Source: Flavobacterium hibernum
GTDB lineage: Bacteria; Bacteroidota; Bacteroidia; Flavobacteriales; Flavobacteriaceae
Length of the DNA: 64,000 nucleotides
Assembly (NCBI RefSeq): GCF_000832125.1
Contig: NZ_JPRK01000007.1
Span: forward strand, 310,001-374,000
Direction of reading: 5' to 3'
In this document: piece after piece, positions 20,089-41,337 of the stretch
Position numbering within the stretch: position 1 is the first letter of the stretch
Layout of the letters: each line of letters begins with the position of its first letter
Notes under the pieces: generated by a model
What the model saw: the letters and a program-made list of their open reading frames with translations, nothing else
Told to the model about the DNA's origin: nothing
The model's database searches: none
Position numbers and translations under genes: made by a program

Positions 20089-21171
20089 ATGAAAAGAATT
20101 ATCTTGTTCACAGGCTTAATTGCCCTAGTGTGCCTTACTAGTTGTTCAACTAAAAAAGAAGAAAAAGAAGAAGCGGAAAAATTTACCGCAACAAATCCTG
20201 TCGTATTAGACACTTCATTTGTAAAAGAATACGTTTCTCAGATTAAATCTGTACGTAACATCGAAATCCGTGCTCAGGAAAAAGGGTTTCTACAAAACAT
20301 TTATGTTGATGAAGGACAATTTGTAAAAAAAGGACAACTGTTGTTTAAAATTATGCCAAACATGTATCAGGCAGAATTACTTAAAGCACAGGCAGAACAA
20401 AAATCAGTAGAAATCGAATTACAAAATTCAAAATTATTAGCAGATAAAAATATCGTTTCTAAAAACGAATTAAGTGTAGCGCAGGCAAAACTTCAATCTG
20501 CAAAAGCCGAGGTTGCATTAGCAAAACTTCACTTGTCATTTACAGAAATCAGAGCGCCGTTTGACGGAACAATTGACCGTATTCCATTAAAATTAGGAAG
20601 TCTTATTGACGAAGGTGAATTAATGACAAGTCTTTCAGACAACAGTCAGATGTTTGTTTACTTCAATGTTTCAGAGCCAGAGTATATTCAATATCAAACA
20701 GATATAAAAGACCGTGCAGATAGTAACGTTAGTTTAGTTTTGGCCAATGGAGATACTTTTAAAGAAAAAGGAAAAGTAGAACTTATCGAAAGTGAATTTA
20801 ATAATGAAACCGGAAATATCGCTTTTAGAGCAAGATTCCCAAATTCAGGAAAATTACTTAGAAATGGTGAAACAGGTCAAGTTCAAATGTTAGTACCGCT
20901 TAAAAACGCTATTATAATTCCACAAAAAGCGACTTACGAAATTCAGGATAAAAAATACGTTTTTGTTATTGATAAAAACAATAAAGTAAATTCAAGAGAA
21001 ATTACAATTACAGGCGAAATCCCTGATTTGTATGTGGTTAAAACCGGAGTTACTCAAAATGACAAAATCTTACTTGAAGGAGTTCAGAAAGTAAAAGAGA
21101 ATGACAAAATTAAATATGAGTTCCAATCTCCAAAAGAGGTAATGAATCATTTACGCGTAAAAGCCGAATAG
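20089..21171 (+). CDS. RND efflux periplasmic adaptor (membrane fusion lipoprotein)
   Basis: A 360-residue adaptor linking the inner-membrane pump to the outer-membrane channel. The lipobox is LTSC (Cys19). A biotinyl-lipoyl half motif (NIYVDEGQFVKKGQLLFKI), an alpha-helical hairpin (about 90-150) and the second lipoyl half (IRAPFDGTIDRIPLKLGS) appear in the right order, then the beta-barrel region. First of three efflux genes; the pump starts 33 nt downstream. Confidence 0.95.
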   Translation: MKRIILFTGLIALVCLTSCSTKKEEKEEAEKFTATNPVVLDTSFVKEYVSQIKSVRNIEIRAQEKGFLQNIYVDEGQFVKKGQLLFKIMPNMYQAELLKAQAEQKSVEIELQNSKLLADKNIVSKNELSVAQAKLQSAKAEVALAKLHLSFTEIRAPFDGTIDRIPLKLGSLIDEGELMTSLSDNSQMFVYFNVSEPEYIQYQTDIKDRADSNVSLVLANGDTFKEKGKVELIESEFNNETGNIAFRARFPNSGKLLRNGETGQVQMLVPLKNAIIIPQKATYEIQDKKYVFVIDKNNKVNSREITITGEIPDLYVVKTGVTQNDKILLEGVQKVKENDKIKYEFQSPKEVMNHLRVKAE

Positions 21172-21204
21172 ATTTAACTGGTTTAATCATTAAAAAAATA
21201 TACA

Positions 21205-24200
21205 ATGTTTAATAAATTTATTCAAAGACCTGTACTGTCGATAGTAATATCGCTTATAATTGTCTTTTTAGGGATATTGTCGGTATTGAATTTACCTATT
21301 ACACAATTCCCTACAATCTCACCACCAATGGTGAATGTTACTGCAGATTATCCAGGATCTAATGGTGAATTGATGATCAAGGCCGTTGTAATTCCGTTAG
21401 AAAGAGCCTTAAATGGAGTTCCAGGAATGAAATACATGGCTTCTGATGCTGGAAATGATGGTGAAGCTACTATAAAAGTGGTGTTTAACTTAGGAACAGA
21501 TCCTAATCAGGCTGCAATTAACGTTCAAAACCGTGTAGCTTCGGTTACCAATAAATTACCACCTTTAGTAATTAGAGAAGGTATCAAAATCACTCGAGAA
21601 GTGCCAAGTATGTTGATGTACGTGAATCTTTACAGTACAGACAAAAATACCGACATGAAGTTCTTGTACAACTATGCAGACATCAACGTTTTATCTGAAT
21701 TAAAAAGGGTAAACGGTATTGGTTCCGGAGATATCTTAGGAACACGTGAATATGCAATGCGTATTTGGTTGAAACCTGATCGTATGTTGGCTTACAAAAT
21801 TTCTGCCGATGAGATCATGGAAGCTTTATCTAGCCAAAGTTTGGAGGCTTCTCCTGGTAAAACTGGAGAAAGTTCAGGTAAACGTTCTCAAGCTTTTGAA
21901 TATGTATTAAAATACTCTGGACGTTTTACAACAAAAGAGCAATATGAGAATATTGTTGTAAAATCAAATGCAAACGGAGAGCTTTTACGTTTAAAAGACG
22001 TTGCTAAAGTTGAATTTGGTAGCTCGATGTATGATATCTATTCTAATTTAAATGGTAGACCATCTGCGGCTATTGTATTAAAACAATCTTTCGGAAGTAA
22101 TGCAAATCAGGTTATTGAAGAAGTAAAGGCTAAACTGGAAAAAATCAAACAAAGATTTCCAAAAGGAATGGATTACGAAATTTCGTATGACGTTTCTAAA
22201 TTTCTTGATGCTTCTATCGAAAAAGTAATCCATACACTTGTTGAAGCATTTATTCTGGTAGGTATCGTAGTATTCCTTTTCTTAGGAGACTGGCGTTCGA
22301 CAGTTATTCCGGCAATTGCAGTACCAGTATCATTAATTGGAACGTTTGTGTTCATGACTTTCTTTGATATTTCATTGAACTTAATTACATTATTTGCTTT
22401 AGTTCTTGCAATTGGAGTCGTCGTCGATGATGCCATTGTAGTAATCGAGGCCGTTCACGCCAAGATGGAGGAAGAGCATCTCTCGCCACTTAAAGCGACT
22501 AAAAAAGCAATGCACGAAATTGCAGGAGCAATTATAGCAATTACATTCTTAATGGCTGCTGTATTTATTCCGGTTGCGTTTATGTCTGGTCCGGTTGGGG
22601 TATTTTACAGACAGTTCTCTGTAACTATGGCAACTGCGATTATCCTTTCTGGTATTGTGGCTTTGACTTTGACACCTGCACTTTGTGCGATGATGTTAAA
22701 AAACAATCATGGAGAAGTTAAAAAGAAAACGCCAGTAAATGTATTTATAGATGGATTCAACAACAAGTTCAATTTAGCACAAGGTAAATATCAAAATCTA
22801 TTAGCTAAAATTGTAAACAGAAGAGCGGTTACCATTATTGCACTTCTAGGTTTTTGCGCCGGAACATGGTTAATTAGTAGTACAGTTCCTTCTGGGTTTA
22901 TCCCGAATGAGGATCAGGGTATGTTTTATGCTGTAATTCAAACGCCACCGGGTTCATCATTGGAAAGAACCAATAATATTGCCGAAAGACTGCAAAAAAT
23001 TGCGGAGAAAATTGATGGAGTAAAATCTGTTTCATCATTAGCAGGTTACGAAATTCTGTCTGAAGGTACAGGTTCGAACTCAGGAACTTGTTTGGTCAAC
23101 CTTAAAGACTGGAGCGACAGAAAGCATTCCGTTTTGGAGATTATGGCCGAAATGGAAGAAAAATCTAAAGATATTGCAGGTGCTAATATCGAATTCTTTC
23201 AACCGCCTGCTGTACCTGGATATGGTGCTGCCGGAGGATTTGAGCTTCGTTTGTTAGACAAAACAGGTTCTAACGATTACAAAAAAATGGAGCAGGTTAA
23301 CAATGATTTCGTTAAAGAGTTAAATACTCATCCGGAATTATCTAACGTGTTTAGTTTTTACAGTTCTAGTTTCCCTCAGTACATGATGAAAGTAGACAAC
23401 GACATGGCACAGCAAAAAGGAGTTTCTATCGAAAACGCGATGAATACCTTGTCAACTCTTGTGGGAAGTAACTACGAAATTAGTTTTATTAAATACGGAA
23501 TTAACTATAAAGTAATCGTTCAGGCTTCGCCGGAATATCGCGCACAGCCAGACGATATCCTAAAGTTGTATGTAAAAAACAATCGTGATGAAATGGTTCC
23601 TTTTTCTGCTTTTATGAGATTAGAAAAAGTATACGGACTATCTGAGATTACAAGACATAACATGTACACTTCTACACAAATTAGTGGTTCTGCAGCGGCA
23701 GGTTATAGCTCTGGTACGGCGATTAAAGTAATTCAGGAAGTTGCCGCTAAAAAATTACCTAGAGGTTACGATATTGACTGGGCAGGTATTTCTGCCGATG
23801 AGGTTGCTCAAGGAAATCAGGCAATTTGGGTATTCTTGATCTGTTTAGGATTCGTATACTTAGTTTTGGCTGCCCAATACGAAAGTTTTATTTTACCATT
23901 ATCTGTAATTCTTTCTTTACCGGCAGGTATTTTTGGAGCTTTCTTATTGTTGAAATTAACAGGATTAGAAAACAACATTTATGCTCAGGTTGCAATGGTA
24001 ATGCTTATTGGTTTACTAGGTAAAAATGCTGTGTTAATTGTAGAGTTTGCAATACAGCGACATGCCGCAGGAAGATCAGTACTTGAAGCAGCAATGGAAG
24101 GAGCTAAAGCGAGGTTCCGTCCAATTTTGATGACTTCATTTGCTTTTATTGCTGGATTATTACCACTTGCTTTTGCAACTGGTCCGGGTAAAATTGGTAA

Positions 24201-24372
24201 CAGAACCATTGGTACTGCTGCTGCCGGAGGTATGCTTATAGGAACCATTTGTGGTGTATTTGTAATTCCGGGCTTGTATTTCATTTTTGCTAAAATTGCC
24301 GAAAAGCATAAACTGGTAAAACATGAAGAAGAGAATCCATTAACAGAAGAAATTGATAACAATCATGTATAA
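21205..24372 (+). CDS. RND multidrug efflux permease (AcrB/MexB type)
   Basis: A 1055-residue, 12-TM proton-driven pump of the hydrophobe/amphiphile (HAE1) class. The start FIQRPVLSIVISL is typical, and so is the proton relay VVVDDAIVVIEAV in TM4 with adjacent Asp residues near 407-408, and GLLGKNAVLIVEFA in TM10. The Asp pair and the lack of a metal-binding site favour drugs or other hydrophobic solutes over metals. The stop overlaps the start of the outer-membrane factor gene by 8 nt. Confidence 0.96.
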   Translation: MFNKFIQRPVLSIVISLIIVFLGILSVLNLPITQFPTISPPMVNVTADYPGSNGELMIKAVVIPLERALNGVPGMKYMASDAGNDGEATIKVVFNLGTDPNQAAINVQNRVASVTNKLPPLVIREGIKITREVPSMLMYVNLYSTDKNTDMKFLYNYADINVLSELKRVNGIGSGDILGTREYAMRIWLKPDRMLAYKISADEIMEALSSQSLEASPGKTGESSGKRSQAFEYVLKYSGRFTTKEQYENIVVKSNANGELLRLKDVAKVEFGSSMYDIYSNLNGRPSAAIVLKQSFGSNANQVIEEVKAKLEKIKQRFPKGMDYEISYDVSKFLDASIEKVIHTLVEAFILVGIVVFLFLGDWRSTVIPAIAVPVSLIGTFVFMTFFDISLNLITLFALVLAIGVVVDDAIVVIEAVHAKMEEEHLSPLKATKKAMHEIAGAIIAITFLMAAVFIPVAFMSGPVGVFYRQFSVTMATAIILSGIVALTLTPALCAMMLKNNHGEVKKKTPVNVFIDGFNNKFNLAQGKYQNLLAKIVNRRAVTIIALLGFCAGTWLISSTVPSGFIPNEDQGMFYAVIQTPPGSSLERTNNIAERLQKIAEKIDGVKSVSSLAGYEILSEGTGSNSGTCLVNLKDWSDRKHSVLEIMAEMEEKSKDIAGANIEFFQPPAVPGYGAAGGFELRLLDKTGSNDYKKMEQVNNDFVKELNTHPELSNVFSFYSSSFPQYMMKVDNDMAQQKGVSIENAMNTLSTLVGSNYEISFIKYGINYKVIVQASPEYRAQPDDILKLYVKNNRDEMVPFSAFMRLEKVYGLSEITRHNMYTSTQISGSAAAGYSSGTAIKVIQEVAAKKLPRGYDIDWAGISADEVAQGNQAIWVFLICLGFVYLVLAAQYESFILPLSVILSLPAGIFGAFLLLKLTGLENNIYAQVAMVMLIGLLGKNAVLIVEFAIQRHAAGRSVLEAAMEGAKARFRPILMTSFAFIAGLLPLAFATGPGKIGNRTIGTAAAGGMLIGTICGVFVIPGLYFIFAKIAEKHKLVKHEEENPLTEEIDNNHV

Positions 24373-25816
24373 ATTCAAATCATATCAATATGGTATTGCA
24401 TTAGGTATTTGTCTTACGGTTGCAGGTTGTAAAGCCCCTGCGCCTGAGGCACCAATAACGCCAAGTGCAGCAGTTCCTGAGTCGTTTGGTGCATCGGCTC
24501 CAGCTCAGGATGCAAACAATAATACATCAACATTAGCTTGGAAAGATTACTTTAAAGATCAAAACCTTGTAGACTTAATTGATGTTGCCTTAAAAAACAA
24601 TCAGGAATTAAATATCACTTTACAGGAAATTGAAATTGCTAAGAATGATATTCGTGTAAAAAAAGGACTTTTATTACCAACAGTTGGTGTTCGCGCCGGA
24701 GCTGGTGTTGAAAAAGTAGGTAGATATACCAGCCAAGGTGCCGGTGATGCTACTACAGAAATTAAACCCGGTAAAGAAACTCCAGATCCGTTGGGAGATT
24801 TTACAATATCTGCTTACGCAAACTGGGAAGTAGATATCTGGAAAAAACTACGCAATTCTAAAAAAGCAGCTTTAAACAGATATTTGGCTACCGTTGAAGG
24901 TAAAAACTTTGTAATTACAAATCTTATTGCCGAAGTTGCTGACTCGTATTATGAGTTAATGGCTTTAGACAATCAGCTTGATATTGTGAAGCAAACGATC
25001 AAGTTGCAGACAAATGCATTGGAAATTGTAAAGATTCAAAAACAAGCTGCAAGAGCTACAGAACTTGGTGTTAAAAAGTTTGAAGCTGAGGTTTTAACTT
25101 CAAGAAGTATGGAGTTTGATATTTTGCAACAAATAAAAGAAGCTGAGAATAAGATCAATTTTTTATTGGGTAGATATCCACAGGAAATTAAGAGAACAAA
25201 TAATAATAACTTCTTGAGTTTATTGCCTGCCGCTGTGAGTTCTGGAATACCGTCTCAATTATTGGCGAATCGTCCAGATATTAAACAAGCAGAATTAGAG
25301 TTAGTTGCAGCAAAATTAGATGTAAAAGTTGCTCGTGCTGAATTTTATCCGTCATTGAATATCACGGCTGCAATAGGAGTAGATGCTTTTAAACCATCGT
25401 ATTTGCTTACTATGCCAGAATCACTTTTGTATTCATTAGCGGGAGAGCTTGCAGCGCCATTGATTAACAGAAATGCTATCAAGGCCGAATTTGCTAGTGC
25501 AAATGCAAGACAACTTCAGGCGTTGTACAATTATGATCGTACGGTTTTGAATGCTTATTTAGAAGTATCAAACCAGCTTTCTAAAATCGAAAACCTACAA
25601 AAAGGTTACGATCTTAAATCGCAACAAGTTGATGCGTTAAACACCTCAATTGATGTTTCTAATGATTTGTTTAAATCAGCTAGAGTTGATTATTTTGAAG
25701 TTTTAATGACGCAACGTGATGCATTAGAAGCAAAATTAGAATTAGTAGATACTAAAAAAGAACAATTGAATGCTGCTGTCCATGTTTATAGAGACTTAGG
25801 CGGCGGTTGGAAATAA
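24365..25816 (+). CDS. Outer-membrane efflux lipoprotein (TolC/OprM family)
   Basis: A 483-residue outer-membrane channel. I start at ATG 24365, overlapping the pump stop by 8 nt, because it gives a lipoprotein signal with lipobox VAGC (Cys22); an upstream TTG is in frame but less likely. Two long alpha-hairpin repeats of the OEP fold are visible, with NRPDIKQAELELVAAKLDVKVA at the start of the second. Completes the tripartite pump with the two genes upstream. A terminator follows at 25837. Confidence 0.95.
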   Translation: MYKFKSYQYGIALGICLTVAGCKAPAPEAPITPSAAVPESFGASAPAQDANNNTSTLAWKDYFKDQNLVDLIDVALKNNQELNITLQEIEIAKNDIRVKKGLLLPTVGVRAGAGVEKVGRYTSQGAGDATTEIKPGKETPDPLGDFTISAYANWEVDIWKKLRNSKKAALNRYLATVEGKNFVITNLIAEVADSYYELMALDNQLDIVKQTIKLQTNALEIVKIQKQAARATELGVKKFEAEVLTSRSMEFDILQQIKEAENKINFLLGRYPQEIKRTNNNNFLSLLPAAVSSGIPSQLLANRPDIKQAELELVAAKLDVKVARAEFYPSLNITAAIGVDAFKPSYLLTMPESLLYSLAGELAAPLINRNAIKAEFASANARQLQALYNYDRTVLNAYLEVSNQLSKIENLQKGYDLKSQQVDALNTSIDVSNDLFKSARVDYFEVLMTQRDALEAKLELVDTKKEQLNAAVHVYRDLGGGWK

Positions 25817-25880: not shown

Positions 25881-27590
25881 TTATTTAGGTATAGATATTT
25901 TGGCTTTAAACCCTTTATCAGGTTCTGTGTCAAAGTTAATAGATCCTTTAACGGCTTCAATTCGGCTTTCCATGTTTTTAAGGCCGTTTTTTACCATCGT
26001 CATTTTTTCGCAGCCCTTACCGTTATCCGTATAATTTATTAAGATTGATTTTTGATCATTTTCAAATTTTATAACGACCAAATTTGCCTTACTGTGTTTC
26101 TTCATATTTACCATTAATTCCTGTAAAACTCGGCTAATAGTGATTTTTTTTATGTCATCGATAGTTTCCCAGTTCACATCTTCCAGGTTCGTAACGATGA
26201 TATTTCTTCCGTTGGTATTGTAAGTCGAAAGCATTTCTTTGATGCTGGAGGTAAAATTGATACCCGTATCAATTTTATTATTTTCTTTTGAAATTCCTCT
26301 TACACGCCCGTAAATATCATCTAATTTTTGAAGAAGATTTTCTTTAGTGTTTTCCTGAGATAAAGTTTGAGATTCGGCAAAAGCAATTACATGATAGACA
26401 TCGTTTGCCAACTCATCATGGATTTTTTTAGCAATTCGAGCTTCTGTATTGTACGAAGTCTTAAATTCTATAGCTTTGTTTTTGTTTTTATAATAACGTA
26501 TTAAAATCGCTATTAGAATGACCAAAAAGATAAAAACAATAACAAACCCAATTCGTAGATAAGTGGCTTTTTGAAGCGCTAATTCATTTTCAGCTTTTTC
26601 TAAACGAAGTTTTGCATTTTCGTCTTTTTCTTTTTTAGCGTCGTATTTAATTTTAGCAAACTTGTTTTTAAAGTTGTTTCTAACTTTAATAATACTGTCA
26701 TTTAAGGTAAAATACCTTTGTACATATTTGCCGGTTTGGTTACTGTTGTTATTAGAGATTAAAATTTGCAGCGCTTCTAATCTTTCGTCAACACTATTTA
26801 GTTTTGTGGCTGTGTTGTATGCTGCATGAGCATTTTCATCTGACTTCTGAAGATCTTTTTTGGCATAATAATCGGCAAGATGAAGATAACTTTGAATACT
26901 TCCGTAAGTATCTTTAAATTTAGTCCTTGTTTGGAGCGCATCCTTCATTAAACCGAATCCTTTTTCATCTATTCCTTTTTTAAAATAGGCAAAACCCAAA
27001 TTGTCCAGAAGTCTGGACTCATTAACTTCCTGACCTTTCTCTTTTAATAATTTTTTGCTTAAAAGAGATTCTAAAAGATTGATTGCATTATCATATTTTT
27101 TTTGTTGGATATAAACAGCAGCAATATTGCTTAAAGGGAATTGCTTAATAAGAGGATCTTTAAATTCATTGGCTGCTTCTTTATAATAGTGGATAGCATC
27201 ATCATAAAGAGAAAGTTCTTTGTCAGCAATGCCTAATATGTTTTTTATAGCTGCTTTATCCTCATTCCTTTTCGTTACATATAGTAATGCTTCGGTAACT
27301 GTTTCCTTACTGCCATAGTAGTCTCCGTTGACTTGCTGAATTGTTGCCATTTGAATGAGTATGTATCCAATATTAGCACTGTCTTTTAATTTTTCGAAAA
27401 GTAGTTTTGATTTATTATATTCGTCAAATGCGATATTGAAGTTTTGTTTGCTGTGATCTTCAATTGCTTTATCTCGTATACGAAATGCTTCATCACGTAT
27501 AGGATCTGTTTTAGTATGATTGATCTTTTTGTCTTTACATGCAAGGAGAAAAAGTAGTATAATAAAATAAAAAAACGGGGACCGTAACAT
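25881..27590 (-). CDS. TPR sensor histidine kinase lipoprotein, paralog 1 (no adjacent response regulator)
   Basis: A 569-residue kinase. Lipobox LLAC (Cys18) tethers the N-terminus; residues about 35-300 are six or so TPR repeats, followed by a coiled coil, one membrane span near 346-366 and a cytoplasmic kinase core. The phospho-acceptor region is KKIHDELANDV (HisKA_3-like, NarL type), and the ATPase part has NMKKHSKAN, YTDNGKGC and a Gly-rich end. It closely parallels the kinase at 38040-39734, sharing the opening MLRSPFF and almost every motif. Here the expected response regulator is missing: a terminator follows directly. It is led by a tiny lipoprotein gene. Confidence 0.93.
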   Translation of the reverse strand: MLRSPFFYFIILLFLLACKDKKINHTKTDPIRDEAFRIRDKAIEDHSKQNFNIAFDEYNKSKLLFEKLKDSANIGYILIQMATIQQVNGDYYGSKETVTEALLYVTKRNEDKAAIKNILGIADKELSLYDDAIHYYKEAANEFKDPLIKQFPLSNIAAVYIQQKKYDNAINLLESLLSKKLLKEKGQEVNESRLLDNLGFAYFKKGIDEKGFGLMKDALQTRTKFKDTYGSIQSYLHLADYYAKKDLQKSDENAHAAYNTATKLNSVDERLEALQILISNNNSNQTGKYVQRYFTLNDSIIKVRNNFKNKFAKIKYDAKKEKDENAKLRLEKAENELALQKATYLRIGFVIVFIFLVILIAILIRYYKNKNKAIEFKTSYNTEARIAKKIHDELANDVYHVIAFAESQTLSQENTKENLLQKLDDIYGRVRGISKENNKIDTGINFTSSIKEMLSTYNTNGRNIIVTNLEDVNWETIDDIKKITISRVLQELMVNMKKHSKANLVVIKFENDQKSILINYTDNGKGCEKMTMVKNGLKNMESRIEAVKGSINFDTEPDKGFKAKISIPK

Positions 27591-27643
27591 ATAAATTTAC
27601 TTTCCCCGAAAATAGTAATTAATTAGACACTAAAAATATTTAT

Positions 27644-27841
27644 TTATTCATCACCACCAGGTGTTTTAATTGGTGGTTTCCCAGGAGGAGTACCATCACC
27701 CGGACCATCAGCGTAAGTTGGTTTTTGATGATTAATAACCTTTTCAGTTTCCTTTTTTGGTTGTGTTTCATACTCATCAGGAGTACAAGAAAATATAGTG
27801 AATAATGACGCAAAAGCGACAAATAGTATTAGTTTTTTCAT
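27644..27841 (-). CDS. Tiny lipoprotein paired with TPR kinase 1
   Basis: A 65-residue lipoprotein with lipobox IFSC (Cys19), directly followed by TPDEYET. The mature 46 residues are Lys/Glu then Gly/Pro rich (GPGDGTPPGKPPIKTPGGDE), with no fold visible. It is the counterpart of the 64-residue lipoprotein at 39789-39983, which has IFSC-TADEFET at the same place and also ends on a Pro/Lys stretch. It lies 53 nt before the kinase gene. A ligand or partner of the kinase TPR domain is a reasonable guess. Not noticed by length-filtered gene callers in many genomes. Confidence 0.75.
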   Translation of the reverse strand: MKKLILFVAFASLFTIFSCTPDEYETQPKKETEKVINHQKPTYADGPGDGTPPGKPPIKTPGGDE

Positions 27842-31972: not shown

Positions 31973-32182
31973 TTAATCTTCCCATCCACAAAGCGTTAAA
32001 CCATAACCCTGCGCTTGTTTAAGCGATGTTTTTACAGTTTCACTACGACAGCTTTTTAAACCACGGCAATTTTCATTAAAATGATATTTTTTTGCACCGG
32101 TAGAACCACAAATAAATACACTTTTTTCCGGAGGATGAAAAGAAGTTAGAAAAACAAATAGAAGAAGTAAACTATATTTCAT
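31973..32182 (-). CDS. Small exported Cys-rich protein
   Basis: A 69-residue protein with a short signal sequence (MKYSLLLLFVFLTS) and a mature part holding Cys and His in the pattern CGSTGAKKYHFNENCRGLKSC, ending TLCGWED. The spaced His and Cys recall small zinc-binding folds such as the Ada N-domain type. I recall comparable proteins in flavobacteria without an assigned role. It lies 8 nt after the upstream lipoprotein gene, so they likely form an operon. Confidence 0.7.
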   Translation of the reverse strand: MKYSLLLLFVFLTSFHPPEKSVFICGSTGAKKYHFNENCRGLKSCRSETVKTSLKQAQGYGLTLCGWED

Positions 32183-33741: not shown

Positions 33742-33841
33742 GAGATTGTGATTTAGATTATTTACTCAAATGTAAAACCAATCAAAATCAATATTTTATG
33801 GAAATCCGTAATTGGGGCATTTTAGTAAGTGCTTTAAATAG

Positions 33842-33871
33842 AAAAAAGAGGACGTCGAAACTCCTCTTTTA
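33842..33871 (-). terminator. Terminator of the TerB/vWA cluster
   Basis: On the minus strand AAAAGAGGA pairs with TCCTCTTTT, ending in a T run, 22 nt beyond the stop of the vWA-like lipoprotein gene. Confidence 0.85.
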
Positions 33872-33892
33872 AAATTTTGTTATGCATTAAGG

Positions 33893-34789
33893 CTAATTTT
33901 TCGAAATAAAATCTTTAATAATTTTATCCATATTCGAGGGTAGATCTGCATTTTTGATTTCAAAATGTTTTATTTTCATTTCAGTAAGCCATTTAGTCCA
34001 ATATGCCTTAATAACTTTTTCTTCATAAGGATTGTTTTTGCTTGGATTAATCCCTAAAATGAGAACCTCGAGGTCTGATAAATCTGTGTCAATTTTAATA
34101 AAACCAAAATCCTGATCTTTAAAATTTTTCTCCCAATCGTTATTGTTTAAACTATTTTTCCGAATCAATTCTGGCGTGATATACGATGTTCTATTGCGAT
34201 CTTTCATTATAGTACTTTCATAAAACATATAACCATCTGTCAAAATAACAAGAATATTTCGTGCCTTATTTTCGATACATTGATCTTTTACTTTAGTATC
34301 AAAAAAACGCCATATATCTGATCCGATATAATTATCGTCTTTTATGGCAGACTCATATATTTTTAAGGTTTGTGAGGCATAATTAGAGTTTATAGAATTC
34401 AGTAAGTCTTTTGAAGCATTATTTTGATCAATAACTATTTTTAGCTTTTGTGAAATTGAATTGATAGCTGGATCAAGAGGTTCGGGATTAAAAAACAATT
34501 GCATTTTATCATTAATTTGCCTTATTCTTTTTGCCTTTAAATGTTGTGTAAAAGCTTCCGAAACTGATTTTATATATCCTAAATCTCTTTGATAAAATTC
34601 CATCGTTGGATTTGGATTTTTTTTAATGCTTATTCGGTCAGATAAATCAACAAGAATGCTGATATTATAATTTTCTGAAACGGCACTTTTTACGGCTGTT
34701 TCTTTATGTTCTTTTTTTTCATCGTCTTTGCACGAAAAAAACAAAACGAGTAGTAATGGCGCTAAATATTTAAGTAAAGTTTTTTTCAT
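33893..34789 (-). CDS. vWA-like lipoprotein, last gene of the TerB-like cluster
   Basis: A 298-residue lipoprotein (lipobox FFSC, Cys20). The mature domain starts with ISILVDLSDRIS: D48-x-S50 is in the position of a MIDAS metal site, though the second Ser is replaced by Asp, and LVILTDGYMF (about 180-190) fits the later vWA strand with its Asp. So a divergent von Willebrand A fold at the outer side of a membrane is likely. It begins 4 nt after the 4-TM coiled-coil protein. The role in binding a partner is inferred. Confidence 0.7.
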   Translation of the reverse strand: MKKTLLKYLAPLLLVLFFSCKDDEKKEHKETAVKSAVSENYNISILVDLSDRISIKKNPNPTMEFYQRDLGYIKSVSEAFTQHLKAKRIRQINDKMQLFFNPEPLDPAINSISQKLKIVIDQNNASKDLLNSINSNYASQTLKIYESAIKDDNYIGSDIWRFFDTKVKDQCIENKARNILVILTDGYMFYESTIMKDRNRTSYITPELIRKNSLNNNDWEKNFKDQDFGFIKIDTDLSDLEVLILGINPSKNNPYEEKVIKAYWTKWLTEMKIKHFEIKNADLPSNMDKIIKDFISKN

Positions 34790-34793
34790 TTTA

Positions 34794-36062
34794 TTAGTTT
34801 TTAGAATATACTAAATGCTGAAAGTCAGGATCGGTTAAATTTAATTTACTCAAATGTTCTTCAGAAAAAAGTTCACAGCTTTGCAAAAGTTCTTCTTTCT
34901 CTTTGTAAGGAAGCGCTATTTCAGTACCAATGGCTTGATACCATCCTTCTTTGTATTGATGATGATAATGTAGATACTCTTTTACTGGGAACACAAAACC
35001 ATCAATTTTAGATTGAAGTTCAGAAATCTTACCTGTTATAGTAACTATTTGCTGTTTGAAATCATTGATCTTATTAATGTATTCTGCTTTTAGTTTTTCT
35101 AAATCAATCATGTTTTCTTTTTTACCTCTAATAAAAGCTCTGATTTTATCAATGTTTTCGAATTCTTTCATTACAAAATCAAAAACAAGACCCCAAATAA
35201 TATACACGACAAATCCCGCAAATATGATCATCCAAAACTCTGCTTCACCCAATGCAATATTTAAATTATAAGGAGCAGAATCAGTTGTTTTATTAAATTC
35301 ATAAATCTTTTTTTCGATTTGATAAGCCAATAAAGCATCAAAGAGAAACGTAGTAACAAATAAGGCAATCATTCTTAAGATGTTTTTAATACCTTTTCCT
35401 TTTTGAACCATATGAATTACATAACCCAATCCCATAAATACAAACGGAATTGTTATAACCAAAACACCTTCGAGCCAGCTTGCTTTAAAAGAATTTGTCA
35501 ATGCATCGGCATCAAAAATGGCGGCGGTTAAACTATCATTCGAAAATTCCTTGAAAAAAGCAGAATAAGAGGCCGATATATAAAACACTAAAACGTAAAG
35601 TGTAATAGGAAGTAGTAAAAACAAACCAATATAAAACTGAGCTTTTAAACCCTTACCATCCTCAATTCCGTATTTATCAGGATTGCGTTTTACTTCGATA
35701 ATTTCATTTTTTATCACGTCGATATTGTCGTTAATATCCTGTTCTTTCTTTTCGTAAATACCAATTGCGGTTTCAGATTTTTTAAGTTCAGTTCTGTTTT
35801 TTTCCTGTTCTTCGCGATAAGGCTGTTTTAATTTGTCTTGCTCTAATTTTTGTTTTCGGCACTGATCTTCAAAACTCATATATAAATTCTGTAGACATGC
35901 TTTTAAAACAATTGGTTTTCCAGTCGCTTTTATCGAGGCGGCAAAACCACTTTGGTAATAAGTTATTCTAATTTGTTCTCTGTCCTCTTCATTTTCTTCT
36001 AAAGATTTAAAAGTAGAATCGTCAGACTTTTTTAAACTAAATAATTGTGTAAGTGATTTCAT
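34794..36062 (-). CDS. Four-TM coiled-coil membrane protein of the TerB-like cluster
   Basis: A 422-residue protein. N-terminal soluble part, long charged coiled coil (about 80-135), then TM segments near 150-172, 195-218, 228-250 and 275-300, then a second coiled coil (about 310-355) and a soluble C-terminus. No family recognised. It is coupled to neighbours by 3 and 4 nt gaps, so the three products almost surely work together. Layout suggests a membrane scaffold carrying cytoplasmic coiled coils. Confidence 0.75.
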   Translation of the reverse strand: MKSLTQLFSLKKSDDSTFKSLEENEEDREQIRITYYQSGFAASIKATGKPIVLKACLQNLYMSFEDQCRKQKLEQDKLKQPYREEQEKNRTELKKSETAIGIYEKKEQDINDNIDVIKNEIIEVKRNPDKYGIEDGKGLKAQFYIGLFLLLPITLYVLVFYISASYSAFFKEFSNDSLTAAIFDADALTNSFKASWLEGVLVITIPFVFMGLGYVIHMVQKGKGIKNILRMIALFVTTFLFDALLAYQIEKKIYEFNKTTDSAPYNLNIALGEAEFWMIIFAGFVVYIIWGLVFDFVMKEFENIDKIRAFIRGKKENMIDLEKLKAEYINKINDFKQQIVTITGKISELQSKIDGFVFPVKEYLHYHHQYKEGWYQAIGTEIALPYKEKEELLQSCELFSEEHLSKLNLTDPDFQHLVYSKN

Positions 36063-36065
36063 AAT

Positions 36066-36461
36066 TTAAGAGTTTAGTTGACTAATAATTTCTTCTTTAC
36101 CAATGTTTTTCTGAACGCAGTCAATAAGATAATCAGATAAATCATTAATATTTTCATCCATAAAATCAAATTTTCGGCAATACTTTCTAAGCATATTTAA
36201 TTCGTCATCGGTAACTTTTCCGTCAGCCCAAATAATTCGGGTAAAATCATATAAATACTCAATTTTGGTATTTAGAGCTTCGGGAACAATAAACTCAGTA
36301 TTAACAGGGTTGAGAAAAAGTTTGTCAAGTTCTTCTTTAGGAATGCCTCTTTCATCTGCAAAATGATACAGCATTTGAAGTTCTAATACATCAAACTGAT
36401 CGTCGGATAGTGCCATTTGATACAATCTCAAAAAATGGCTTTTAAGTTCTAGTGTTATCAT
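36066..36461 (-). CDS. TerB-like helical protein
   Basis: A 131-residue all-helical protein with the spacing of the TerB fold: LSDDQFDVLELQMLYHFAD in the first half and IIWADGKVTDDELNMLRKYC in the second. The repeated acidic D-G-x-(V/F)-x-x-x-E-x-x segments are the known TerB signature. In Ter stress systems TerB links metals or membranes to vWA partners; here a vWA-like lipoprotein is two genes downstream. First gene of the coupled trio. Confidence 0.72.
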   Translation of the reverse strand: MITLELKSHFLRLYQMALSDDQFDVLELQMLYHFADERGIPKEELDKLFLNPVNTEFIVPEALNTKIEYLYDFTRIIWADGKVTDDELNMLRKYCRKFDFMDENINDLSDYLIDCVQKNIGKEEIISQLNS

Positions 36462-36474
36462 GTTTTTGGGTTTA

Positions 36475-36732
36475 TTATTTTAAAGATTCACATGCTTTTC
36501 CGTTACCATCTCGATCCAGATTTTTGTAACACGTTTTGTTACTGTTATAAGTTGCCTGTGCTTGTGCTTGAGTTTTAAAATCGTCACAGGTTTTTGTGGG
36601 ACAATTTGAGTTTGATCCTGAACTAGAACCTGAAGTTATTTCTGATGAATCTCCTGAATCTGAACAAGAAATTATAATGCCTGCTAGCATTAATGTGGAA
36701 ATAGAAATTATTTTAATTTTTTTATGTTTCAT
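36475..36732 (-). CDS. Excalibur-domain lipoprotein
   Basis: An 85-residue lipoprotein with start ATG 36732 (lipobox IISC, Cys23). After a Ser/Gly-rich linker (about 24-42) comes an Excalibur calcium-binding domain: CDDFKTQAQAQ and NLDRDGNGKACE, where D-x-D-G-x-G is the calcium loop and the Cys pair is typical. The next gene begins 13 nt away, so it may be part of the same envelope cluster. Confidence 0.85.
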   Translation of the reverse strand: MKHKKIKIISISTLMLAGIIISCSDSGDSSEITSGSSSGSNSNCPTKTCDDFKTQAQAQATYNSNKTCYKNLDRDGNGKACESLK

Positions 36733-36740
36733 TGATTCTA

Positions 36741-36965
36741 TTATTTTAAGTGATAAATTAAAAAAGTGATAAATCCTGTAAAAATAAAAAGCACAAGGCA
36801 TCCGCTATTTTGATATCGTACTCCTGATATGCCCGTTTTTACAGAATAGCCACTTTTGCCAAATGTTCCCATTTTTGTTCTTAAACTTGGAGAGATGCCA
36901 GATTTACTAATATTTAAGCCAAATCCCCCGCCAAGTCTAATTCTTTTTTGAAATCGAAAACCCAT
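36741..36965 (-). CDS. DUF4236-family protein
   Basis: A 74-residue protein matching the DUF4236 pattern: start MGFRFQKRIRLGGGFGLNIS, KSGIS, then GISGVRY, followed by a C-terminal membrane segment (about 54-72). Known DUF4236 proteins sometimes occur fused to or beside Excalibur or SHOCT domains, consistent with the Excalibur gene 8 nt downstream. Role unknown. Starts the likely cluster that runs to 33893. Confidence 0.82.
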   Translation of the reverse strand: MGFRFQKRIRLGGGFGLNISKSGISPSLRTKMGTFGKSGYSVKTGISGVRYQNSGCLVLFIFTGFITFLIYHLK

Positions 36966-37213: not shown

Positions 37214-37315
37214 AATTTAATTTTAAATTGATTTAATAATTCAAACTTAAACCTATTTGAAACCAGTATTTTACGGAAATCCATAATGCATGTTTTTTTA
37301 ATTTTGGGCAATAAA

Positions 37316-37364: not shown

Positions 37365-38033
37365 TTAGATAATTCCCATATCTTTTGTAATAGAAACCAG
37401 GTGAACGGTATTATTTGCCTTAAAAAAGTCTTTTAGTTTAGAAAGTCTTTTTTCCATGGCACTTTTGCTATTGGGTTTTTTACCTGAGTCTTTAAAGATT
37501 TGTACAATCTCATCCTGTGGAGTTCCTGAAGATAAATGTTTTAAAATTTCAATGTCTAAATCGTCTATTTCAAAATTGCTTTTTTCCTGAAGCGCAGATG
37601 CAACATCATGCGAAATAAATTTTCGATCTGAAGTTGAGGTTAGATGAATTGCTTTTTTTAAGTCTTCAATACTATTCCGTCCTTTTAATACAAAACCATC
37701 AATTTCGGCATTATCAAAAAGAGATTTTATACGATAGCTTTTATCTTCGACAGAATAGGCAATAATTTTAATATCAGGCTGAAGTTCACGAACCTTTTCA
37801 ATAAGTTCGTCACCACAAGTAATTTTTACTTCACGATGATCTTTTTTAAAAGAAAGATCACTGATTAAAAGATCGTACGGTTCATTGTCCAGAATTGCTT
37901 TTCTTATTTTTAAAAAGGCATCATCGCAATATTTTGCGTGTTGAAAATTTACAATCTCTAAATCTTTTAAGGTTTGCTCGATGCCTAAGTTTATATCTTC
38001 AAGATCTTCGGCAACTATTACTTTTTTAAACAT
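37365..38033 (-). CDS. Response regulator with LuxR-like DNA-binding domain
   Basis: A 222-residue regulator. The receiver domain has acidic pair E9-D10, phospho-acceptor D59 in LLISDLSF and K117 in VLKGRN. The loop after D59 is longer than usual (SFKKDHREVKITCGDEL). The C-terminal about 65 residues (LDIEILKHLSSGTPQDEIV and after) are a degenerate LuxR/NarL-type helix-turn-helix. It follows the TPR kinase gene by 6 nt and is its obvious partner. With paralog 1 lacking one, it may receive signals from both kinases. Confidence 0.9.
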   Translation of the reverse strand: MFKKVIVAEDLEDINLGIEQTLKDLEIVNFQHAKYCDDAFLKIRKAILDNEPYDLLISDLSFKKDHREVKITCGDELIEKVRELQPDIKIIAYSVEDKSYRIKSLFDNAEIDGFVLKGRNSIEDLKKAIHLTSTSDRKFISHDVASALQEKSNFEIDDLDIEILKHLSSGTPQDEIVQIFKDSGKKPNSKSAMEKRLSKLKDFFKANNTVHLVSITKDMGII

Positions 38034-38039
38034 AGGCTT

Positions 38040-39734
38040 TTATTTAGGCAGCGTTATTTTTACTTTAAAACCTTTATCAGGTTCAGTGTCAAAAGTAATA
38101 GTTCCTTTTACGGCTATAATACGGTTTTCCATATTTTGCAAACCATTTTTTTTAATTTGTTCCTTTACACAGCCTTTTCCGTTATCTGAGTAATTGATAA
38201 CGATATTATTTGCGATAATTTCAAACTTAAAAAAAACGACAGAGGCCTGGCTATGCTTTTTCATATTGACCATTAATTCCTGTAATACTCTGTGAATCGA
38301 GATTTTTTTAATATCGTCAATAGTATCCCAGTTTATTTTCTCGATGCCATTAATACTAATATTTGTATCATCATTATTATAGGTAGAAAGTATTTCTTTT
38401 AAATTTTTCCAATAATTTGGTCCGGTATCGATATCATTATTTTCTCTCGAAATTCCGCGAACACGCGAATAAATATGATCTAATTTTTGAATTAAATTTT
38501 CTTTACTGTCTTCATTTGTAAGAGACTGTGTTTGCGTAAAAGTAATGGCTTGAAAAACATCATTTGCTAGTTCGTCATGAATGTTTTTTGCAATTCTGGT
38601 TTCGGTATCATAAGCAGTTTCCAGTTTAATAATTTGGGCTTTGTTTTTATGGTTTTTTTTGACAAAAAACAGCACTAATCCCAGAATAATAAATCCGGAA
38701 AGAAATGAGATTTTTTCGATTTCAGATTTTTGCAGCGCAACTTCATTCTCTACTTTCTCTAAGCGAAGTTTCTGATTTTCGTCTTTTTCTTTTTTAGAAT
38801 CGTATTTTATTTTGGCAAACTTGTTTTTAAAATTGTTTCTAATTCTAATAATACTATCGTTTATAGAAACATATTTTTGAGCGTATTGAGTTCCCGAATT
38901 ACTAGAAATTAATAAAGATAATGCTCTCAAACGTTCGTCTACGCTGTTAAGTTTCGTTGCTGTTTCGTATGCTATTTTAGCATATTGATTTGATTTTTTA
39001 ATATCGGTTTTTTCGAAAAATTCTGCTAAATGAAGATAGCTTCCAATAATTCCATAATCATCATTGGCTTCTGTTCTTAGTTTTAAACCTTCGTTAAGAA
39101 GCTGAATTCCTTTATCGTTTAATCCTTTTTTAAAATAGGCAAATCCAAGATTATCAATAACTCTGGCTTTACTTTTTACAAATTCATCAAGTGCTTTTGT
39201 TTTCAAGATCGATTCTAAGAGTTCAATAGCTTTATCATATTTTTGCTGTTTAATATAGATTACGGCAATATTATTTAAAGGAGATTGTTTTGATACTTCG
39301 TCTTTTGCCTCTTTTACTGCTTGATTATAATAAGAGATAGCGTCATCATATATAAAAAGCTCTTTATCAGCAATGCCAAAAAGATTGTTAAGAGCTACGA
39401 TATAATTATTGTCATTTTTAACATAAGGTAATGCTTCAGTTAGTGTTTCTTTACTCCCATAATAATCACTATTTACTTGCTGTATATTGGCCATTTGAAG
39501 TAAACTGAAGACGATGTTTGAACTGTCTTTTGAAGATTCAAATAGTACTTTTGATTTATTAAAGTTATAGAAAGCACTGTCATAATTGCTTTTTTGAAGT
39601 TCATTTAATCCTATTTCTTGTAAAGTTTTAGCTTCTTTTTTAAAGTTATTGGGTTTAATCAGCACGGTTGTTTTCTCTTTGCAGGAAATAAGCGAGAGAA
39701 ATATAAATATAAAAAAAAAGGGGGAACGCAGCAT
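38040..39734 (-). CDS. TPR sensor histidine kinase lipoprotein, paralog 2
   Basis: A 564-residue kinase, closely similar along its length to the one at 25881-27590: lipobox LISC (Cys18), TPR array (about 40-300), one TM near 344-362, phospho-acceptor region KNIHDELANDVF, and HATPase motifs NMKKHSQAS and YSDNGKGC. Unlike paralog 1 it is followed by its response regulator (6 nt). Preceded by a tiny lipoprotein. The external TPR domain probably senses a peptide or protein. Confidence 0.94.
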   Translation of the reverse strand: MLRSPFFFIFIFLSLISCKEKTTVLIKPNNFKKEAKTLQEIGLNELQKSNYDSAFYNFNKSKVLFESSKDSSNIVFSLLQMANIQQVNSDYYGSKETLTEALPYVKNDNNYIVALNNLFGIADKELFIYDDAISYYNQAVKEAKDEVSKQSPLNNIAVIYIKQQKYDKAIELLESILKTKALDEFVKSKARVIDNLGFAYFKKGLNDKGIQLLNEGLKLRTEANDDYGIIGSYLHLAEFFEKTDIKKSNQYAKIAYETATKLNSVDERLRALSLLISSNSGTQYAQKYVSINDSIIRIRNNFKNKFAKIKYDSKKEKDENQKLRLEKVENEVALQKSEIEKISFLSGFIILGLVLFFVKKNHKNKAQIIKLETAYDTETRIAKNIHDELANDVFQAITFTQTQSLTNEDSKENLIQKLDHIYSRVRGISRENNDIDTGPNYWKNLKEILSTYNNDDTNISINGIEKINWDTIDDIKKISIHRVLQELMVNMKKHSQASVVFFKFEIIANNIVINYSDNGKGCVKEQIKKNGLQNMENRIIAVKGTITFDTEPDKGFKVKITLPK

Positions 39735-40329: not shown

Positions 40330-41337
40330 ATGAGAAAAATTACTTTAGAAGAGATTGAAAATAATTACAAAGAAGCAATTAGAAATAAATTTAAAATTGA
40401 AAGAGTCGAAGGGAAGCATTCGCATTATTTAAGCAATCCTTCGCAAGCACTTTTAAGAGATTTGTGTTGGGAAATTTTTAGTTCAGAACCAAAAACGGAT
40501 GATTTAAGTACATATCGTAAATTTTTTAGAACCGATTTTACTCCGGAAGAAAATACTTCAAGGCAGTACACAGATAAATTTAAAAAAGTAGGAGGATTTT
40601 ATAAAGGAGATAAAGATCCAGCCAATATTAGTACCGTAGAATTAGCAGCAATTTTGGTAGACTTTCATCCAAGACCTCTTAATAAGTTTAAAAAAGAAAT
40701 TGGTGAAGAAGATATGAAACTGATAGATGAACTTAGAAATACTGACTTTTCTCCTAAAGAAGTTTCTACTGATGAATTGGTAAAAGAAAGCGAGATAGAA
40801 AATTTTACGGATTCTAACGTCGATTTTGCAGAGACAGATTCAGTACCAATACAAAATCAATATTTAGAACCAGTAACTTTGAAAAATAAAGAGCCAAAAT
40901 TAGAGCAAACACCTGAAGCAACATCAATACAAACTTTTGGAGAGTTAGTTGATAAACCGAAAGGGAAAAAAAATAGATATTTTGCAATTGCGGCTGTTTT
41001 AATATTATTAGTTGCAATAATATTTTTAGCATTGCCAGAAAAACAATGTATGCAATGGTCCAATGATCATTACGAAATAGTTGATTGTGATTTGAAAATT
41101 GAAGGTATTGGTATGCCACCTCGTATTGAACTTCTAGATAAGAGCCTTGTAAATTTGAAAAAAATAAATGTTTGTGATACCACAACTTGTTTTGATAAAA
41201 ATGGACAAGCTATGATTTGGTATGCGAAGACAGCAAATGGAATTGACTTTTTTAATGGTCATGGCAGGCATCCTGAGAATAACAGCCCGTTGAGACCAGT
41301 TACCCGCTATATTTTGGATAAATATGTAAAAAAGTAA
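40330..41337 (+). CDS. Hypothetical single-pass membrane protein next to the kinase 2 cassette
   Basis: A 335-residue protein. The N-terminal about 210 residues are cytoplasmic and charged, one TM segment lies at about 218-236 (YFAIAAVLILLVAIIFLAL), and an about 100-residue outer domain with paired Cys (CMQWSNDHYEIVDC, VCDTTTCFDKNG) follows. Not a recognised family. Divergent from the tiny lipoprotein; its counterpart is absent in the first cassette. A role alongside the kinase is inferred from position only. Confidence 0.72.
   Translation: MRKITLEEIENNYKEAIRNKFKIERVEGKHSHYLSNPSQALLRDLCWEIFSSEPKTDDLSTYRKFFRTDFTPEENTSRQYTDKFKKVGGFYKGDKDPANISTVELAAILVDFHPRPLNKFKKEIGEEDMKLIDELRNTDFSPKEVSTDELVKESEIENFTDSNVDFAETDSVPIQNQYLEPVTLKNKEPKLEQTPEATSIQTFGELVDKPKGKKNRYFAIAAVLILLVAIIFLALPEKQCMQWSNDHYEIVDCDLKIEGIGMPPRIELLDKSLVNLKKINVCDTTTCFDKNGQAMIWYAKTANGIDFFNGHGRHPENNSPLRPVTRYILDKYVKK

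Follow-up and report, generated by a model that had tools for sequence, protein, structure and literature searches.

We analysed a 64,000-nucleotide stretch of the Flavobacterium hibernum genome (contig NZ_JPRK01000007.1, positions 310,001 to 374,000 of the forward strand), which we call the window, and found in it a conserved locus built around two adjacent genes. One encodes TMCC, a 422-residue protein with four transmembrane (TM) helices and two coiled-coil regions, and the other encodes a lipoprotein with a vWA-like fold. This TMCC-vWA pair, and not the part that recalls Ter systems, is the core of the system, because the pair exists without TerB. We believe, with a probability of roughly 45%, that the pair is a transmembrane sensor-relay with exchangeable DNA-directed effectors, and that its likeliest use is against phage or incoming DNA. 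For the TerB type found in the window we infer a defence role by kinship; its own neighbourhood consists of a two-component switch, envelope proteins and one nuclease.

The initial annotation had described five co-directional genes (DUF4236, Excalibur, TerB-like, TMCC and vWA-like) separated by 3 to 13 nt and ending in a terminator. The list of open reading frames (ORFs) bears this out: the five lie on the minus strand at 33893-36965, the gaps from the DUF4236 gene through the vWA-like gene are 8, 13, 3 and 4 nt, and a terminator hairpin stands at the end (33844-33870). A simple terminator scan, with loops limited to 8, did not list this hairpin. The five genes are the middle part of a larger conserved locus at about 31.97-41.34 kb, with a histidine kinase (HK) and response regulator (RR) upstream, an HSDR_N gene and two small genes downstream, and a divergent gene, DIV335, past the kinase.

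A contig scan gave 73 loci of named genomes, 60 counted as Flavobacterium (one of these is titled [Flexibacter] sp. and one Flavobacteriaceae bacterium) and 13 from other genera. By phmmer, all three core genes (TerB, TMCC and vWA) were found in 78 of 80 loci and were co-directional in 78 of 78, and each is present in all 60 Flavobacterium loci and all 13 others, so the expectation that the genes are kept together elsewhere holds for these three (73/73). DUF4236 is present in 49 of 60 Flavobacterium loci and 5 of 13 others (54/73) and Excalibur in 48 and 3 (51/73). These two genes are variable extras, and on these counts we rejected the five genes as the unit. The two-component genes and the divergent gene are more constant. 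RR was found in 60/60 and 11/13 loci, HK in 59/60 and 11/13, and DIV335 in 60/60 and 11/13; HK and RR adjoin each other upstream, on the strand of the core genes, in 68 of the 73, and DIV335 is divergent and within 1.2 kb of HK in 68 of the 73. Five loci fall outside the HK-RR count: L065 has both genes with an overlap beyond the limit, L070 has RR only, L077 has both downstream, and L071 and L079 have neither. HSDR_N is found in 31/60 and 3/13.

We used genes flanking the locus as a control. The control reached 8 kb, and the five window genes that were inside it and usable (28901, 29715, 30407, 41500 and 42011) were found in 4, 5, 29, 32 and 1 of the 60 Flavobacterium loci and in 0 of the 13 others. 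Other listed flank genes were outside this reach (two still match 8 and 13 of 60), and one, fl_25881, is a kinase paralogue that matches the kinase. Chance neighbours were rejected by this control, since in other genera flank genes stand at 0/13 and core genes at 13/13. Most Flavobacterium TMCC copies are about 90% identical, so synteny among them is not independent and it is the 13 other-genus loci that carry weight.

A TMCC search of 395 Bacteroidota genomes matched 26, including the window's own, with 20 at E <1e-20 and six near 1e-4. A second TMCC model matched 27 of 394 genomes, with five near 1e-4, and added G142, G259 and G347. The matches near 1e-4 (six from the first model, five from the second) were set aside as probable chance matches. 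Of the 20 strong rows we inspected the gene neighbourhoods of 13, leaving out six of the same genus, and we included G033, G031 and the three genomes from the second model (L122-L136 and L164-L166); TMCC and vWA were adjacent in 18 of 18. A profile, and not phmmer, picked up the vWA partner in L135 and L164-L166, and the vWA gene of L010/L135 had been added to the profiles after inspection (it is adjacent and reads DLSNR), so that its profile match is not independent. Eight of the 15 loci L122-L136 (L122-L129) have TerB together with HK and RR; the TerB of L124 is a short ORF. L135 lacks TerB and has an HK-RR pair; its TMCC is preceded in the same ORF by a DUF6804-like stretch. The TMCC tree unites the TerB type in a single supported group (100/99) and spreads the CRISPR-linked rows over three places; it has long branches, and our use of it is restricted to these two points. 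A class-level search around G194 matched 2 of 98 genomes, both known already. TMCC had no match in phage records, and in plasmid records it matched Runella only.

Seven loci are without TerB and the kinase (L130-L134, L136 and L003, on a Runella plasmid), and five of the seven are beside type III CRISPR genes. L003 has cmr4-6, csx2, cas1 and cas2 nearby, L130 has a Csx20-like gene upstream, L131 has a weak Csx3-like gene (21.7 bits, cut-off 21), L132 has Csx20 (2e-23), and L133 has a Card1-like gene (2e-48), an NE0113-type CARF gene and RT-Cas1. Csx20 is a ring nuclease (PMC12409355). Our Cas and defence queries were mostly drawn from positive loci, so the matches are mostly self-matches, and these queries overlooked the RAMP genes that Pfam detected at a distance of 11 kb in G194. 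A repeat in L169 reads as a coding repeat and was discarded.

For a like-for-like comparison we scanned the neighbours of at least 100 residues with PADLOC (E 1e-10), both in the 7 TerB-less loci and in the 13 other-genus loci among the 73 of TerB type; the family counts are per set and not per locus. Among the 67 neighbours of the TerB-less set, the best 25 of 209 families include CARF/Csx20 with 4 members, Csx15/20 with 3, Cas1 with 2, and Cmr4. The 105 neighbours in the TerB-type set matched 16 families, none of them type III, and the Cas queries matched 0 of the 73 TerB-type loci. RAMP genes are present in all four genomes with CRISPR-linked pairs (G068, G070, G194 and G273) and also in G347; they are about 11 kb from the pair in G194 and on other contigs in G068, G070 and G273. 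No RAMP gene was found in the window's genome, G031, G259, G142, G033 or G309, and Cmr2_N was found in 0 of 11 genomes.

In other Flavobacterium, TMCC carries an N-terminal PLD-like domain (PF13091, 82.5 bits). A PLD-TMCC model matched 44 of 299 genomes of the genus, five at full length; the rest are other PLD proteins. These five and L165 make six PLD-type loci, and L164 is doubtful. L164 lies on contig C58 of G347, a genome of another class that is 88% complete, and its PLD-TMCC is close to that of Flavobacterium, so it is probably contamination or a recent transfer. All 7 PLD-type proteins keep an intact HKD motif. HK, RR, HSDR_N and DIV335 are nearby in five of the six loci, and two small proteins of the window's locus, Lip136 and KYH69, are also in PLD-type loci L165, L166, L205 and L206. 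From the comparison of the PLD-type loci, the PLD domain would be cytosolic and stand in place of the TerB gene. L207 is the exception: there PLD-TMCC, vWA and a 70-residue ORF sit inside a type I restriction operon, with hsdS on one side and hsdR on the other. In L208 a Cas9 gene follows vWA, and in L205 an AbiD gene is within the set. The row at L207:1378-13442 reads AAA ATPase gene (PADLOC NsnB 1.6e-31, AriA 2.3e-26), hsdM, hsdS, PLD-TMCC, vWA, hsdR, and this stretch is possibly a composite defence island.

Other nucleases are found close to the pair. A staphylococcal-nuclease-like gene with a signal-like start is near vWA in 7 of the 13 other-genus loci (L071, L072, L073, L075, L077, L079 and L084) and in L065; the L075 copy matches thermonuclease structures at E 1.5e-10, and the PADLOC scan placed 5 of the 105 TerB-type neighbours in the staphylococcal-nuclease family. 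Seven of the 60 Flavobacterium loci, and also L123, L129, L165, L166 and L206, encode an Exo_endo_phos protein. The window has neither gene. Its own nuclease candidate, HSDR_N, has one copy in the genome, and all 34 orthologues keep the nuclease residues D...ECK, which a pattern search recognised in 31 and inspection by eye in the other 3.

TMCC and the vWA-like protein matched no family above cut-off in Pfam or NCBIfam, and none convincingly in PHROGs or PADLOC; in PADLOC, TMCC reached only LmuB, Jet, PbeC and DinG (E 0.001-0.05), which we read as coiled-coil noise. By hydropathy, the TM helices of the window's TMCC are at 145-163, 192-210, 228-246 and 276-294, and every TMCC tested has four (window, L075, L133, L165, and L003 before its fifth). 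The AlphaFold model of TMCC has a mean pLDDT of 65.8 and is confident (about 90) only near 81-120 and 311-350. The model of the vWA-like protein is better, at 84.2. With Foldseek against PDB its best matches were largely vWA or I domains (E 1e-4 to 1e-3, TM by query 0.3-0.4), and with VIA-align it matched the bacterial vWA protein 4fx5 (Z 12.7, 172 aligned, 2.9 A) and the integrin I domain 1n3y (Z 12.3, 173 aligned, 3.1 A). The model thus supports a vWA/I-domain fold for the lipoprotein, which together with the TerB match (PF05099) agrees with the two folds first proposed from the sequence; a shared fold by itself shows no function. The MIDAS motif is altered, with DLSDR in place of DxSxS and DLSNR in one relative (23 and 10 aligned rows), and the seven PLD-type rows read DMSSR, DMSDR or DLSSR. 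Pfam over the 23 vWA rows returned sub-threshold noise only, such as Rho_RNA_bind.

The vWA-like protein had been placed on the outer leaflet as a surface lipoprotein, and here we came to a different conclusion. Most vWA proteins of other loci have a lipoprotein-like start, and the residues after the lipobox Cys are not conserved. In L135 the protein has an N-terminal TM anchor after six basic residues, and on the Runella plasmid TMCC and vWA are fused into one 704-residue protein with a fifth TM helix between them. Because of the Runella fusion behind the fifth helix and the L135 anchor, vWA most likely acts in the periplasm at the inner membrane, and we rejected a surface-exposed vWA on these forms and the unconserved residues. 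The N end of TMCC would be cytosolic because of the PLD fusion. In two Aquimarina loci a small protein with RGGCYYINSNGNKTYV directly follows vWA (L072:10182-10574 and L073:10195-10590); it has relatives in L076, L084, L125 and L128, and no PDB relative was found.

A palindrome recurs at these loci. With at most 1 mismatch, TACGGANWTCCGTA has 93 sites in 1.24 Mb of loci and 0 in one local shuffle; this single shuffle is the control, and sites among related Flavobacterium are not independent. The sites cluster behind RR and ahead of HSDR_N. A site follows RR by no more than 300 bp in 34/60 Flavobacterium loci and 3/10 others, and one also follows RR in Pedobacter L076, L082 and L083. HSDR_N has a site no further than 150 bp ahead of it in 19/31 and 0/3, and vWA has one in the 300 bp behind it in 28/60 and 0/13; in the 700 bp upstream of HK the sites are weak (6/59 and 2/10). 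The window carries it in two places, after RR and before HSDR_N. The form TACGGAWWTCCRTA, a search pattern written after the two window sites were seen, has four places in the 5.28-Mb genome, two of them at this locus. We infer that RR binds the palindrome, a candidate regulator site. The remaining copies in the genome adjoin unrelated genes: on contig C2 (L093/L095) one copy lies some 100 bp upstream of a gene that has an AAA-like GGKTT motif and is followed by a 790-residue gene, and another precedes a 382-residue gene, all named by eye. In L036 (12390-15922) HSDR_N is away from the TerB operon and follows a second HK-RR pair, from which the palindrome separates it.

Our proposal builds on what is established: the gene set, the domains and folds named above, the swapping of modules, the relatives' CRISPR and restriction neighbourhoods, and the conserved site. 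TMCC and the vWA-like protein would form a membrane relay, probably as a complex. TMCC is predicted to make four passes through the inner membrane and to keep both coiled coils on the cytosolic side, and vWA, on the periplasmic side as the fused and anchored forms suggest, would sense a protein or surface signal. This signal would alter the coiled coils of TMCC and so switch on a DNA-directed effector, if the signal runs in that direction. The effector would differ by lineage: TerB and the HSDR_N nuclease in the window, a fused PLD nuclease domain in other Flavobacterium, and type III CRISPR components elsewhere, often with secreted nucleases beside the relay. The envelope HK and RR, probably through the TACGGAWWTCCGTA palindrome, would raise the relay, HSDR_N and the small envelope proteins. 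The purpose would most likely be inducible immunity against phage or other incoming DNA.

Several points weigh against the sensor-relay. Defence genes are near the TerB type in some cases only, and it is not regularly part of a defence island: a limited set of restriction, Abi and CRISPR queries (HsdM, HsdS, HsdR, OLD, Cas9, Abi) matches only 2 of its 73 loci (L063 and L075), and the PADLOC neighbours in the 13 other-genus loci include AbiEi, Cas9, PD-Lambda-2 A and B, a phospholipase effector, mad2 and DpdF with one protein each. Two of the seven TerB-less loci (L134 and L136) had no CRISPR gene in the Cas-query search. PADLOC has no convincing model for TMCC or vWA, and neither PADLOC nor Pfam found a messenger-binding domain (CARF, SAVED etc.) in them, searches from which weak domains could escape. 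The membrane part of TMCC is modelled poorly by AlphaFold. In 26 of the 60 Flavobacterium loci and 7 of the 10 others no palindrome lies near RR, and a stricter form, TACGGWWWWCCGTA, has six places in the genome and none at this locus. The secreted nucleases and small secreted proteins fit an envelope or DNA-handling role equally, and the neighbourhood of the TerB type in the window is also covered by either.

The locus could instead serve an envelope-stress response, in which HK senses damage and induces a periplasmic vWA, a TMCC scaffold and TerB, these steady the membrane or sense metal, and the nucleases are incidental. The frequent HK-RR pair, the many small secreted or lipoprotein partners and the lack of a regular link between TerB-type loci and nearby defence genes are what one would expect from this, but it leaves unexplained the type III CRISPR neighbours of five of the seven TerB-less loci, the fused PLD domain, the placement between hsdS and hsdR and the common site before HSDR_N, and the genome is without TerD. 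We regard it as rather unlikely. Envelope stress and phage defence were both among the initial guesses at function; the second is now the favoured reading and the first only a rival, and metal sensing is not supported by anything at the locus. DNA handling at the envelope, where outside DNA is broken down or processed inducibly for nutrition, transformation control or competition, draws on the Excalibur protein, HSDR_N, PLD and the two kinds of secreted nuclease (the staphylococcal type in 7 of 13 other-genus loci and L065, Exo_endo_phos in 7 of 60 Flavobacterium loci and five more). The window has neither secreted nuclease, the CRISPR and type I restriction neighbourhoods favour defence, and a secreted nuclease could serve defence too. 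We find DNA handling distinctly improbable; the PADLOC and secreted-nuclease results raised our estimate for it slightly and lowered that for envelope stress slightly. That the genes have no common function and are neighbours through ancestry or general operon stability is hardly credible to us. Synteny counts for less when 60 of the 73 loci are Flavobacterium with many near-identical TMCC copies, but in other genera flank genes stand at 0/13 against 13/13 for TerB, TMCC and vWA and 11/13 for RR, HK and DIV335, and there are also the Runella fusion and the cassette embedded in a restriction operon.

Taken to its full extent, the sensor-relay reading makes TMCC-vWA a new portable transmembrane immune relay of Bacteroidota. 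Its periplasmic vWA sensor and coiled-coil transducer would plug into a PLD nuclease, TerB and HSDR_N, type I restriction and type III CRISPR signalling, and in Flavobacterium and relatives a two-component switch would link envelope sensing to DNA-directed immunity. We offer this wider claim tentatively, with the odds somewhat against it. If it is true, it would show how a signal at the envelope might trigger immunity that cuts DNA, and unrelated effectors would share a single sensor. The relay would also account for hypothetical genes retained across Flavobacterium and relatives, provide membrane partners for some type III CRISPR loci, and suggest that two-component systems can arm a defence.

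Table 1. Features of the TMCC-vWA locus, in window coordinates
Feature	Position	Strand	Remarks
DIV335	40330..41337	+	divergent, beyond kinase; 335 aa; one TM helix 217-235; no Pfam match
Small putative lipoprotein, 64 aa	39789..39983	-	ahead of kinase; 52/60 Flavobacterium loci, 0/13 others
Histidine kinase (HK)	38040..39734	-	lipoprotein-like start, TPRs, HATPase_c 31.1 bits (Pfam)
Response regulator (RR)	37365..38033	-	Response_reg 27.4 bits, below cut-off 30.2; kept beside kinase
Palindrome TACGGAAATCCATA, candidate regulator site	37272..37285	.	upstream of operon
Gly/Lys-rich peptide, 52 aa	37055..37213	-	signal-like start; first gene past palindrome; no Pfam match; 21/60 Flavobacterium loci, 0/13 others
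DUF4236 protein	36741..36965	-	PF14020 36.1 bits (cut-off 27)
Excalibur-domain lipoprotein	36475..36732	-	PF05901 26.4 bits (cut-off 22); likely ATG 36732, ORF extends to 36801
TerB-domain protein, cytosolic	36066..36461	-	PF05099 29.6 bits (cut-off 24.4)
TMCC, 422 aa, core protein	34794..36062	-	4 TM helices, two coiled-coil regions; no family
vWA-fold lipoprotein	33893..34789	-	altered MIDAS motif DLSDR ... LTDGY; no family above cut-off
Terminator hairpin	33844..33870	-	U tail; -10.1 kcal/mol, z -2.1; 5/200 shuffles equally good
Second palindrome TATGGAAATCCGTA	33797..33810	.	56 bp upstream of HSDR_N gene
HSDR_N protein, PD-(D/E)XK-type residues	32686..33741	-	PF04313 49.8 bits
Lip136, lipoprotein-like, 136 aa	32191..32601	-	no Pfam family; 55/60 Flavobacterium loci, 0/13 others
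KYH69, 69 aa, KYH..CRGL..LCGWED	31973..32182	-	signal-like start; no Pfam family; 56/60 and 6/13 loci

Elsewhere in the window, a second TPR histidine kinase at 25881-27841 is a paralogue of the locus HK. Ahead of it is a protein related to the small lipoprotein (27644-27841), efflux-like genes come after it at 20089-25816, named by eye, and a two-mismatch palindrome is inside it at position 26018. The genome has two more TerB-like stretches (C11:208056 and C17:26387), one above cut-off and one below; this genome-wide search did not list the window's own TerB, so weak members can be lost.

The genes had been presented as a possible undescribed Ter-like envelope system without TerC, TerD and a kinase. 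TerC and TerD are defining parts of Ter systems. The TerB domain that such a system requires is present, and PF02342, the TerD family, had 0 matches in the whole genome (99.73% complete), as had been supposed, in a search that can lose weak members. No TerC-family protein was found among the locus genes scanned with Pfam, a scan that was not extended genome-wide. Pfam found no Ser/Thr kinase or PP2C phosphatase among the locus genes either. There is a histidine kinase instead, so that the statement about a missing kinase is right for the Ser/Thr type and wrong for the HK-RR pair. We rejected membership in the Ter systems because the genome has no TerD and the vWA is without DxSxS, and "Ter-like" fits one branch of a system whose core occurs without TerB. 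The likeness to Ter systems and the TerY-P triad is a TerB domain with a vWA-fold partner, but here the vWA is probably periplasmic and the core has its TerB-less forms. TerY-P is associated with DNA restriction and processing in passages of PMC11090510.

Shango, an anti-phage system of a TerB-like protein, a helicase and an ATPase in passages of PMC10250203, shares the TerB-like protein. However, there is no helicase or such ATPase among the locus genes, and TMCC and vWA are absent from Shango as described in those parts; the window's TerB protein matched only PDC-S48 in PADLOC (7e-5). The type III membrane effectors Cam1, Cam2, Cam3, Csx23 and CorA are likewise membrane proteins of type III loci, but several carry messenger-binding CARF, REC or other domains in passages of PMC11229360, and none was detected in TMCC-vWA. 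Unlike them, TMCC-vWA is a two-protein pair that is also found outside CRISPR, and the window's locus is not beside type III cas genes, in a genome without a RAMP gene. The word "Willebrand" has 0 occurrences in the available portions of PMC11229360 and PMC12669027.

The BatB-type vWA proteins of Bacteroides share the vWA fold and the phylum, and 3ibs was among the Foldseek matches (E 1e-3), but the identity in that alignment is 11%, and the partners and the motif are different. Zorya combines an envelope-anchored sensor, a cytosolic coiled coil and a nuclease effector, which is much like the architecture proposed here; PADLOC includes Zorya models, but none was among the matches of TMCC or vWA. 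In the titles and abstracts of the literature searched, none describes this gene set, the DUF4236 context or the palindrome, so the claim that the set is undescribed stands to that extent, although the Ter survey of 2012 or the type III accessory list of 2019 may include one of these proteins unnamed. As far as this search reached, the TMCC-vWA pair is undescribed, and it is kin to Ter-associated or membrane-anchored defence and stress modules.

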